Assembly: GCF_000013005.1 (NCBI RefSeq)
Contig: NC_007722.1
Span: 2,299,501 to 2,363,500, forward strand
Length of the DNA stretch: 64,000 bases
Direction: 5' to 3'
From: Erythrobacter litoralis HTCC2594
Lineage (GTDB): Bacteria; Pseudomonadota; Alphaproteobacteria; Sphingomonadales; Sphingomonadaceae
The notes beneath the pieces are model-generated. The model saw only the letters and a list, made by a program, of their open reading frames with translations. It was not told the DNA's origin and did no database searches. The position numbers and the translations under genes were made by a program. Numbering within the stretch: position 1 is the first letter of the stretch; each line of letters starts with the position of its first letter. This document shows positions 28,053 to 60,971 of this stretch, piece after piece.

Positions 28053-28127
28053 TGGAGCGGGCGAGGCGATTCGAACGCCCGACCCCAACCTTGGCAAGGT
28101 TGTGCTCTACCCCTGAGCTACGCCCGC
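28053..28127 (-). tRNA. tRNA-Gly(GCC)
   Basis: Minus strand: acceptor GCGGGCG pairs with CGCCCGC. The D arm is GCTCAGGGGTAGAGC. The anticodon stem CAACC/GGTTG encloses TTGCCAA with anticodon GCC, and the T loop is TTCGAATC. CCA is encoded at 28053-28055. Confidence 0.97.
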
Positions 28128-58678: not shown

Positions 58679-58839
58679 GGGCAAGAGCGGTTAAGTGCGC
58701 TCCGCCCGCCTGTCCAGCAGCGGTGGTCGATTGTCCCACCGCATGCGCCATAGCGCGCTTTTACAGGCGATCTTCGACATTGCGAAAAGCGCCGCTTGTT
58801 CGATGAAAAGCAACGCTACAGCCCGAATTTGCTGACTGG

Positions 58840-58856
58840 GTTGCAAATTATGCAAC
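58840..58856. promoter_or_regulatory. Palindrome GTTGCA-aatta-TGCAAC
   Basis: Six-base arms, 5-base spacer, AT-rich centre; operator-like. It lies 163 bp upstream of guaA's start and 128 bp upstream of the first tiny ORF. The regulator is unknown. Confidence 0.45.
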
Positions 58857-58915
58857 AACCGTCCCGCCCTTCTCACTTTTAGAAAACGGCACGACCGATT
58901 ATTTCCCGTTCCCAA

Positions 58916-58963
58916 GCCGGGCGGTGAGGCCCTCTCTCCCCCCTCCAAAGCCTGCCCCCCGGC
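58916..58963 (+). ncRNA. C-rich-loop stem-loop 0 (CcsR/cuckoo-like)
   Basis: GCCGGG (58916) pairs with CCCGGC (58963), inner AGGC with GCCT, and the 19-base loop is CCTCTCTCCCCCCTCCAAA. Same design as stem-loops 1 and 2. It lies directly before the ribosome site of the first tiny ORF. Confidence 0.5.
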
Positions 58964-58984
58964 GTACATTGCAGGAGACTGGCC

Positions 58985-59068
58985 ATGCGCAAGCTAGCCG
59001 TACACCTGATAGCTTTTGTGGCTGCAGCGACCCTAAGCAGCCTCACGATCGGAACCACCGTCGCTTAA
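58985..59068 (+). CDS. Tiny hydrophobic peptide, 27 residues
   Basis: MRKLAVHLIAFVAAATL, then SSLTIGTTVA and TAA. AGGAG at 58973-58977, 7 bp before the ATG, supports translation. Hydrophobic, like a short membrane or signal-like peptide. The second tiny ORF (59225) has a similar C-terminal half (ASLGGTVLTVTIA). A U-tract-tailed stem-loop follows 17 bp after the stop. Confidence 0.5.
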   Translation: MRKLAVHLIAFVAAATLSSLTIGTTVA

Positions 59069-59085
59069 AACGGGGCCACCGATCA

Positions 59086-59158
59086 GACCGCCGCGAGACG
59101 CGGCCGCCACTCTCTCCTCTCCCCCCTCGGCGGCTCGCGTCTCGCGGCACGGTCTTTT
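59086..59158 (+). ncRNA. C-rich-loop stem-loop 1 with U-tract
   Basis: Arms GACCG, CCGCGAGACGCG and GCCGCC pair with GGCGGC, CGCGTCTCGCGG and CGGTC with two small bulges; the loop of about 20 bases is ACTCTCTCCTCTCCCCCCTC. The stem is followed by TTTT at 59155-59158. It acts as a terminator and resembles alphaproteobacterial CcsR ('cuckoo') sRNAs, whose loops carry CCUCCUCCC. Confidence 0.6.
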
Positions 59159-59224
59159 CAATCTCGACCCGGTGTAACCTTGCCTGCGGCTGGTGCGAAC
59201 TCCGTGGCAAGACAGACATTCGCC

Positions 59225-59323
59225 GTGAAGGAATTCAACATACGCAACTGGCCCGCAGCCCTGCTCAACCTCGTCATCGCCGCCTCGCTCGGCGGGACCG
59301 TGCTGACCGTCACCATCGCATAA
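59225..59323 (+). CDS. Tiny hydrophobic peptide, 32 residues
   Basis: A GTG start, KEFNIRNWPAALLNLVIAAS, then LGGTVLTVTIA and TAA. It matches the 27-residue peptide at the C-terminal half (five identities in 15 and several conservative changes). The ribosome site is weak. The repetition of peptide plus stem-loop supports this as a real unit. Confidence 0.4.
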   Translation: MKEFNIRNWPAALLNLVIAASLGGTVLTVTIA

Positions 59324-59358
59324 TCCGCGGCGAACCACCCGGCCCGTCCGGGTCGCCC

Positions 59359-59414
59359 GAGGTGCGGCTTGCCGACCGCTTCCCCCTCCTCCCCCAGGCG
59401 GCAAGCCGCACCTC
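59359..59414 (+). ncRNA. C-rich-loop stem-loop 2 (contains CCTCCTCCC)
   Basis: GAGGTGCGGCTTGCCG and CGGCAAGCCGCACCTC are perfect 16-bp arms; the 24-base loop holds TTCCCCCTCCTCCCCC, with CCTCCTCCC, the hallmark of the CcsR family. It ends 18 bp before the stop of the convergent acyl-CoA ligase and may also terminate that gene. Confidence 0.6.
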
Positions 59415-59432
59415 ATCTCTCTTTCCGGACGA

Positions 59433-60971
59433 TCAGCCCGCCAGCGTTTCGGCCAGGTCGCGCAGTTCGGTCTTCAGCAGTTTGCCGATATGGCTGCGCG
59501 GCATTTCCTCGATCACGTGCAGCGCGGAGAGCCGCTGGGTCTTGCCCAGCCGCGCATTGACCGTACCGAGGATGTCCTCGGCCTCGTCCTCCGCCACCGC
59601 CGGCATCAGCCGCACGAAGCCGAGCGGGGTTTCGCCCCATTGCTCGCTCGCGACACCGATCACCGCCGCTTCGGCGACGCGCGGGTCCTTCTCCAGCTCG
59701 GCTTCCAGATCGCTCGGATAGATATTGAACCCGCCCGAGATGATCATGTCCTTGGCCCGCCCGACAAGTTCGACGAAGCCGTCTTCGTCGACCCGCCCGA
59801 TATCGCCCATCCGTTGCCAGACCTCGCCGGTGTCCGGATCGGTCCAGTAGCCTTCGCGGGTTTTGCCGGGCTGGTTCTTGTAGCCCGCCATCATGGTCTG
59901 CGAGCGGCCGATGAGGTTGCCCGGCTCGCCCGGCGGGACAAGGCGATCCTCGTCGTCCAGCACTTTCAGCTCGCTGCCCGGTGCGGGCCGCCCGACGGTG
60001 TGCAATTTGTCCGGAAATTCATGGCAGGCGAGCAGGCACACGACACCGCCTTCGGTCATCGAGTAGATCTCGATCAGGCCGCCCGGCATGCGTTGCAGCA
60101 CCTCCGCCTTGAGTTCCGCCGAGAACGGCGCGGAGGTGCAGTATTTGAGCGCCAGCGACGACAGGTCGTATTGGTCGAAACTCGGCTCGGCCATCAGCCG
60201 CTGGTACTGGACCGGCACCAGCATGGTGATAATAGTCCTGTCCGCCTGCGCATGCTCGAGCCAGCGCACGGTGTTGAATTTGCCCATGATCCGCACCGTG
60301 CCGCCTGCCAGCAGCGGAGCAAGAAACGCAACCATGGTGGTGTTCGAATAAAGCGGCGTCGAGGCGAGCGAGCGTACCTCGAGCCCGGCATCGATATAGC
60401 TGGAAGCGGTCGCCGCGAACTGCCGCCAGCGCATCTGGTGCGAATGGACGATGCCCTTGGGCACGCCAGTAGTGCCGCTGGAATAGATGATGTTGAAATG
60501 GTCTGCGGGATCGGGATCGAACGCGGGAGCCTTCGTGCCTTCCGGGGCCATCCACGCGTCGATTTCTTCCAGCGCGATGCGATCGAAGCCGGGCAGGAAA
60601 TCCTCGCCCAGCTCGGCGTTCTTGCCGTCATCGATGAACAGGTGCCGCGCACCTGAATCTTTCGCCATGCCTTCAAGCTGTTCGCGGCTGGCGCTGGTCG
60701 TCAGCGGCGCGGCCACCCCCCCTGCGCGCACCGCAGCGAGAAACACCAGGGCATAGGCGATACAACTCGTCCCGAGGATCGCGACCGATTGCCCCCGTTC
60801 GAGCCCGGTCTCGACCAGTTTCGCCGCCAGCCGCTCGACGCGACCATCGAGCTCGGCCCAGCTCATTTCGCCCGCATCGTCGCGCAACGCAGGCTTGTCC
60901 GGCTGCCGCTCGGCCCAGGCCGACAGGATTGCGGGAAACGAGCCATAGGGCTGCTGCAGTCTCTCAAGCAT
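59433..60971 (-). CDS. AMP-dependent acyl-CoA synthetase/ligase
   Basis: A 512-residue adenylate-forming ligase. The P-loop-like motif is YSSGTTGVPKG, the acyl-binding region includes IYSMTEGGVV, and the hinge region is MGDIGRVDEDGFVELVGRAKDM. The C-terminal Lys region is in SHIGKLLKTEL. It activates a carboxylic acid to the acyl-CoA; fatty or aromatic substrate is not readable. ATG at 60971 (MLERLQQPY), with GAGAGG about 10 bp upstream. Confidence 0.9.
   Translation of the reverse strand: MLERLQQPYGSFPAILSAWAERQPDKPALRDDAGEMSWAELDGRVERLAAKLVETGLERGQSVAILGTSCIAYALVFLAAVRAGGVAAPLTTSASREQLEGMAKDSGARHLFIDDGKNAELGEDFLPGFDRIALEEIDAWMAPEGTKAPAFDPDPADHFNIIYSSGTTGVPKGIVHSHQMRWRQFAATASSYIDAGLEVRSLASTPLYSNTTMVAFLAPLLAGGTVRIMGKFNTVRWLEHAQADRTIITMLVPVQYQRLMAEPSFDQYDLSSLALKYCTSAPFSAELKAEVLQRMPGGLIEIYSMTEGGVVCLLACHEFPDKLHTVGRPAPGSELKVLDDEDRLVPPGEPGNLIGRSQTMMAGYKNQPGKTREGYWTDPDTGEVWQRMGDIGRVDEDGFVELVGRAKDMIISGGFNIYPSDLEAELEKDPRVAEAAVIGVASEQWGETPLGFVRLMPAVAEDEAEDILGTVNARLGKTQRLSALHVIEEMPRSHIGKLLKTELRDLAETLAG

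Follow-up and report, generated by a model that had tools for sequence, protein, structure and literature searches.

What is encoded between guaA and the convergent acyl-CoA ligase gene of Erythrobacter litoralis HTCC2594 (genome G000 below), where three hairpins with C/U-rich loops of 19 to 20 nt alternate with two tiny open reading frames (ORFs)? A preliminary description of this DNA had placed stem-loops at 58916-58963, 59086-59158 and 59359-59414 of the window, meaning the whole 64-kb stretch that was analysed, and had ascribed one C/U-rich-loop design to all three; the positions and the design were both recovered (Table 1). That description did not include the promoter palindrome, which contains TGC-N7-GCA, that is, T-N11-A. 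The last hairpin lies right before the end of the ligase gene. It is likely that the interval from 58840 to 59414 is a multi-hairpin sRNA gene of the Erythrobacteraceae, with loops directed against Shine-Dalgarno sequences (anti-SD), an MmgR-like promoter and seed and, in some lineages, a peptide. No description of such a unit was found in the open-licence literature, to which the search was confined.

Table 1. Parts of the hairpin unit, in coordinates of the window; A4 and R1 are defined in the text.
Feature	Position	Strand	Basis
Palindrome GTTGCAAATTATGCAAC, presumed operator	58840..58856	+	A4 alignment (25 loci) and genome site search
Promoter block	58868..58902	+	Gap-free columns 1-68 of A4
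-35 region, TTCTCACTTT	58870-58879	+	Within promoter block
-10-like element, GATTAT	58897-58902	+	Within promoter block
SL1 hairpin, loop CCTCTCTCCCCCCTCCAAA	58916..58963	+	Folding, loop scan
ORF1, 27-residue hydrophobic peptide MRKLAVHLIAFVAAATLSSLTIGTTVA	58985..59068	+	pN/pS, profile matches in other genera
SL2 long hairpin, loop ACTCTCTCCTCTCCCCCCTC	59086..59156	+	Fold z -9.1, covariation
ORF2, 27 codons from ATA, related to ORF1, start doubtful	59240..59323	+	Homology
SL3 hairpin, loop GCTTCCCCCTCCTCCCCCA	59359..59414	+	Folding, loop scan, second R1 match in G000

Folding and covariation of the hairpins

SL2 and SL3 are far more stable than shuffled sequences (-51.2 kcal/mol, z = -9.1, and -38.3 kcal/mol, z = -7.2, respectively). 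SL1 folds at -23.7 kcal/mol with a z of only -1.4, and 19 of 200 shuffles fold equally well or better, so that on its own it is not outstanding. Hairpins with C/U-rich loops number 50 on the two strands of the window, and only SL1, SL2 and SL3 among them have loops of at least 17 nt.

The structure of SL2 is conserved. In the alignment used here (A7), which comprises 51 loci outside model building, with seeds and mirror-strand rows excluded, 96.3% of cells are paired (51 matches, 49 distinct), a value that is favoured by the fitting of the alignment to the model structure; structures slid by 1 to 3 columns gave 25.9 to 49.4% pairing. Changes on both sides occur in 13 of the 19 pairs, a count reached by 0 of 500 shuffles. 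These figures supersede those of an earlier alignment (A6) of 66 rows, which included 6 mirror-strand rows and one SL3 and gave 15/19 pairs. One SL2 row, L188, has GGG exceeding CCC. The stems of SL1 vary widely among loci, and a CTCTCC core is kept in the loop in most. Of 73 loci, 50 have CTCTCC between +66 and +140 as measured from the palindrome, 42 of them with it unpaired, and the other 23 lack it in that interval.

Distribution in the Erythrobacteraceae

A DNA search matched 6 of 40 genomes: that of the organism itself, four congeners and one further genome. R1, a covariance model built from six SL2 seeds, extended this to 42 of 298 family genomes and 20 of 96 genera, counts that include the six seeds and some probable false matches. 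The promoter and SL1 were aligned from 25 of the 30 R1 loci returned (alignment A4); of the five left out (L031, L039, L041, L043 and L044), L031 later appeared genuine and L041, L043 and L044 look false. The hairpins of L041 and L044, which by eye have a loop like CCCCCTCCCTCTCTCACCC and stand beside apparent folE and PAS-domain genes, are probably outside this hairpin family. The sequence-only model of the A4 rows (R2) matched 192 of 396 genomes of the order and 37 of 84 genera; part of these matches are mmgR itself, and among the matches listed the genomes belong to the organism's own family throughout.

The preliminary description had suggested comparing the guaA-ligase interval between relatives, and its promoter and SL1 prove to recur near the ligase in most of the loci compared. 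Loci were retrieved with the ligase adjoining the unit as query, and the best 80 of 113 were kept, by title nearly all Erythrobacteraceae (Erythrobacter, Altererythrobacter, Qipengyuania, Porphyrobacter, Pelagerythrobacter, Tsuneonella, Parerythrobacter and unclassified relatives). The promoter and SL1 lie within 4 kb of the ligase in 73 of these best 80 (nhmmer E <= 0.01, the weakest at 8e-3), about 2.3 kb away in L143 and on the ligase's other side in L211. Among the seven loci without such a match, a contig end truncates L179, L189 and L208 within 600 nt, and L189, L198 and L220 nonetheless have an SL2 match. Hairpins with C-rich loops of at least 11 nt are present in 64 of the 73 loci (one in 28, two in 21, three in 9 and four in 6), while 9 have none at the thresholds used, and a family peptide is nearby in 36.

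A promoter in common with mmgR

MmgR is a known small-RNA regulator of carbon storage, and its gene and the hairpin unit have a promoter sequence in common. A GTTGC-N7-GCAAC palindrome stands 11 nt upstream of a TTTTC-type block; in the 17 loci where both pieces were found, TTTTC begins exactly 28 nt past the palindrome start, and columns 1-68 of A4 are gap-free in all 25 rows, which had been cut in register with TTTTC. Searched as GTTGC-N7-GCAAC-N11-TTTTCKCAYTTG with up to 3 mismatches, the pattern has two sites in G000, one at this unit and one upstream of mmgR (G000:C1:2875543, 0 mismatches), and the reversed control has none. The exact palindrome by itself is found at 5 places in G000 versus 3 for its reversed control. 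Unit sites carry 3 mismatches in G000 and G003, 1 in G001 and G002 and 2 in G004. Elsewhere there are two sites each in G001-G005 and G007, while G011 has four; the distant genomes G025 and G027 have one 3-mismatch site apiece, apparently by chance.

The second site is the MmgR promoter, as the RNA behind it scores 44 bits against RF00519 in G000 (gathering threshold 41), the single RF00519 match of that genome and away from this unit; the same identity was confirmed in G003 and, by coordinates, in G007. Of 149 family genomes, 132 have RF00519 at E <= 0.001 and 120 have it over its cut-off. The palindrome (at least 8/10) and block (at least 9/12) stand 64-66 nt upstream of 24 of the 30 best-scoring RF00519 loci, compared with 0 of 600 random places in those loci. 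R2, built on this unit alone, also matches mmgR. The likeness reaches into the RNA: MmgR in these genomes carries AGGCATCCTCTCCC, with CCUCUCCC unpaired, and AGGCACC(C)CTCTCC occurs in four SL1s (L021, L024, L028 and L035). The unit is thus probably related to MmgR in promoter and seed, and common descent of both elements is the simplest reading of the sequence likeness. By analogy with the RF00519 start behind the same block, transcription of the unit would begin at about 58905-58912.

Two further arrangements of these elements were seen. L088 has two tandem mmgR copies, each with its own palindrome promoter. In L160, L168, L173 and L214 a degenerate, related palindrome with a TTTCGCATTTG block lies about 500-600 nt upstream of the unit and precedes a gene for a small exported protein, which we take to resemble the UrcA family.

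The T-N11-A box and its place about 60 nt upstream of the presumed start suggest a LysR-type regulator at the palindrome. NfeR1, an anti-SD RNA, is reported to have an LsrB box, TGCA-N6-GCAT (PMC10746234), with the same core TGC-N7-GCA. LsrB was considered as the named regulator and set aside, as the consensus quoted for PabcR1 (PMC8844928) lacks that core; PhaR/AniA was rejected likewise, its published motif YGCRNYGCR (PMC12542648) being unlike TGC-N7-GCA.

The tiny ORFs

ORF1 is a coding sequence under purifying selection. Its 27 codons, preceded by AGGAG, stand as they had been described; between G000 and G003 pN/pS is 0.20, third positions holding 12 of the 18 differences, and the ratio is 0.30 over 32 pairs differing by at most 25% and 0.43 over all 105 pairs of 15 ORF1-type sequences. 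When ORF2-type paralogs are included, in a wider set of 21 ORFs, it is 0.65. ORF2 is, as claimed earlier, a tiny ORF related to ORF1, and the length of 32 codons given for it falls to 27 by homology with G003. The longer reading uses a GTG at 59225 that overlaps the SD-like AAGGA; the G003 copy starts with ATG behind AAAGGA, and the matching codon of the window is the ATA at 59240, so ORF2 may start at AUA or GUG or may be decaying. One profile matches both peptides in G000 (E = 4.2e-12 and 6.4e-11) and in G003 (3.7e-12 and 3.1e-10), values that are not independent because these peptides were rows of that profile; their relatedness agrees with the earlier claim. Profile matches to the ORF1 family also occur in other genera. 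Each of three peptides tested has a hydrophobic stretch of 19 residues, with a mean hydropathy of 1.95 to 2.09, and four had no match over cut-off in Pfam or NCBIfam, the best family below cut-off being DUF4516 (E = 0.034). Where translated, they would be expected at the membrane.

A second kind of tiny peptide, ending in ...SVSRLPYPAIW(M/L)A or ...AGRYPLPLVWM, was seen in other genera, where it is near the promoter or C-rich hairpins; it lies about 245-263 nt behind the palindrome in L281 and L284, and near locus position 1175 in L021.

Predicted targets

The pattern GGGAGAGG-N2-9-ATG occurs 22 times in G000 versus 3 for the reversed pattern, and at 38:0, 21:0 and 16:6 in G001, G002 and G003. 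The outgroups G024 and G025 show enrichment too (5:1 and 8:2), and it may reflect an ordinary Shine-Dalgarno preference. One GGGAGAGG site is kept upstream of the same gene in G000, G002 and G003. This gene encodes a TonB-dependent receptor (Pfam plug domain in the G003 copy), and its mRNA, with GGGAGAGGAG in all three genomes, is a predicted target; with isolated pieces, the predicted pairing to its leader is -18.1 for SL1 and -28.6 for SL2. The G000 copy (L253, from G000:C1:689615 on) has an in-frame stop after 177 residues, beyond which the same frame continues, and may for that reason not count as a target in G000; in the G002 and G003 copies, retrieved over 352 and 362 residues, no stop occurs. 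Examination covered 18 of the 22 sites in G000, and nine of their proteins were scanned: three short-chain dehydrogenases, a PQQ dehydrogenase, DUF979, beta-helix, ABM and DUF6265 proteins and one without a family. Some other sites there have no convincing gene downstream. In Caulobacter, the alpha-r8 RNA SisA represses TonB-receptor mRNAs through an anti-SD 10-mer seed (PMC12559287).

Loci with and without the tiny ORFs

Peptide and hairpins had been proposed to form units. C-rich hairpins with small ORFs are indeed conserved, but their pairing is not the rule. At the same place in G001, G002 and G004, all of the same genus, the palindrome, SL1 and SL2 are kept and both ORFs are gone, with no peptide profile match in any of the three; by eye a hairpin occupies SL3's place too, and G004 has a diverged -10 region. 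In other genera the peptide is upstream of the promoter (L125, L127, L130 and L134), behind a second promoter copy (L135 and L138) or, by eye, behind the promoter with no C-rich hairpin (L131 and L141). The more distant L281 and L284 have the promoter, then a C-rich stretch with flanking inverted repeats, then a 27-residue peptide, an arrangement from which it seems that promoter, SL1-like leader and peptide may predate the array. It appears that the hairpin RNA and the peptide belong to one regulon and can be parted from each other.

These losses bear on a plainer explanation, that SL2 and SL3 merely end transcription of the tiny ORFs and protect the ligase gene that faces them, their loops being unselected C-rich filler. 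The unit does converge on the ligase, both hairpins are very stable and run into short T-rich stretches (TCTTTTC and TCTCTCTTTCC), and the loops could be mere spacers in large terminators. A simple scan found no Rho-independent terminator, SL2 and SL3 having large loops and short T-rich tails, and it says little because only loops of 3-8 nt were allowed. Yet loops of 19 to 20 nt are long for this role, SL1 sits between promoter and ORF1, an odd place for a terminator, the C-rich loops are retained while the stems vary, and promoter, SL1 and SL2 outlast the ORFs. We regard terminators alone as unlikely.

Alternatively, the locus could be a micropeptide operon regulated in cis, in which SL1 controls ORF1 translation and the RNA does nothing in trans. 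SL1 is directly 5' of ORF1, which is under purifying selection, and pairing between the UCUCC of SL1 and GGAGA at the ribosome site of ORF1 is predicted at -9.8 kcal/mol. Against this, promoter, SL1 and SL2 exist with no ORF at all in the three same-genus genomes, the peptide of L131 and L141 stands, by eye, behind the promoter without the C-rich hairpin, and the pairing predicted with the TonB-receptor leader is stronger for both SL1 and SL2, which leaves a purely cis-acting operon rather improbable.

Comparison with known anti-SD RNAs

Cuckoo RNAs consist of 2 to 4 adjacent hairpins; here there are 3 in the window, with ORFs in between, and 0 to 4 among the 73 relative loci. The CcsR motif CCTCCTCCC pointed out earlier is present in the loop of SL3, alone among the three (CCUCCUCCC in 1/3 window loops), and the family membership drawn from it is not supported: CCUCCUCCC / CCTCCTCCC occurs in 0 of 121 loops of 64 related loci, none of the 20 genomes searched across the order has DUF1127 (PF06568) at E <= 0.001 with a positive E. 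coli control, and Rfam gave no family match at the array. RF00519 was not among the matches at E <= 10 within 58700-59700. Matches below threshold to MIR167, MIR918, CC3513, CC3664 and four more (E 0.59 to 9) were dismissed as chance or stem palindromes; the sole match over threshold in the whole window is a tRNA (28056-28127, minus strand).

The defining features of CcsR, alpha-r14 and alpha-r8 are taken from PMC10253847, PMC3927594, PMC10746234, PMC7143759 and PMC12559287. With CcsR/cuckoo and alpha-r14 (NfeR1) the unit shares a row of hairpins, anti-SD loops and variable stems, and with CcsR a small protein gene nearby. It differs in its loop core (CUCUCC or CUCCCC, as against CCUCCUCCC), in a 27-residue hydrophobic peptide in place of the DUF1127 protein of CcsR (CIN1 locus), and apparently in its promoter, that of CcsR being RpoHI/RpoHII-dependent in R. 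sphaeroides. True membership of the cuckoo/CcsR/alpha-r14 family, for which the hairpin row, the anti-SD-like loops, the variable stems, the nearby small ORF and CCTCCTCCC in SL3 would speak, is very improbable given the absence of motif and DUF1127 from relatives and a promoter block that is mmgR's.

MmgR/alpha-r8 (RF00519 'suhB'; SisA-D in Caulobacter) has the same palindromic promoter block and unpaired CCUCUCCC, and the predicted TonB-receptor target resembles SisA's. MmgR, however, is about 77 nt long, with a weak hairpin, a bare 10-mer seed UUUCCUCCCU and a Rho-independent terminator, whereas in the unit a related CUCUCC(C) core sits in a long hairpin's loop, a peptide ORF is present and RF00519 gives no match. 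That it acts on MmgR as a sponge, copying the seed and drawing off targets or partners, we find scarcely credible: seed and promoter are common to both and an alpha-r8 sponge exists in Caulobacter, but CrfA, the sponge in question, uses a G/A-rich stem-loop for binding (PMC12559287), and the unit's loops, C-rich like the seed, would copy it rather than bind it.

RNAIII carries a tiny peptide on the same RNA as its anti-SD loops. Such loops in the staphylococcal RNA (PMC3927594) resemble those of the unit, although kinship in sequence is not expected, and the unit's ORF, unlike that of RNAIII-type dual-function RNAs, is dispensable in evolution. GsrN of Caulobacter pairs a C-rich loop with G-rich mRNA sites, as proposed here for the unit; it enhances katG expression in the general stress response from an EcfG-type promoter, and its authors report no apparent gsrN-like gene in Erythrobacter litoralis (PMC5869019). 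The unit is best called a relative of MmgR that shares its promoter and seed and would work like CcsR, alpha-r14 and alpha-r8, through anti-SD loops in a row of hairpins, being a member of none of them by their defining features.

Proposed working and implications

In the multi-hairpin anti-SD RNA gene favoured here, a regulator, probably of LysR type, would bind the palindrome about 60 bp upstream of the start and switch on the hairpin RNA and MmgR together. Rigid hairpins would keep the C-rich loops (core CUCUCC/CCUCUCCC) open, and these would pair with ribosome-binding sites of the GGGAGAGG type, such as that of the TonB-dependent receptor, and block translation, several loops offering several similar binding sites. 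The 27-residue peptide, made from the same RNA, would go to the membrane and can be lost. More tentatively, duplication of an ancestral sphingomonad mmgR may have given rise to a second, multi-seed anti-SD RNA that acquired a membrane micropeptide, one LysR-type switch then making both an mRNA silencer with several similar seeds and a peptide, with RNA, MmgR and peptides forming one regulon whose parts were repeatedly fused and separated.

To our knowledge few base-pairing RNAs have been described in sphingomonads, and this family, counted by title, spans some 30 genomes of isolates from Erythrobacter, Porphyrobacter, Qipengyuania and related genera. The label 'CcsR' should not be given for a C-rich anti-SD loop alone. 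One promoter ties the hairpin-RNA family to the cell's alpha-r8 RNA; the Caulobacter alpha-r8 siblings are reported to have no promoter motif in common (PMC12559287). Some loci have the peptide and others lack it, a natural series for separating the role of the RNA from that of the peptide.
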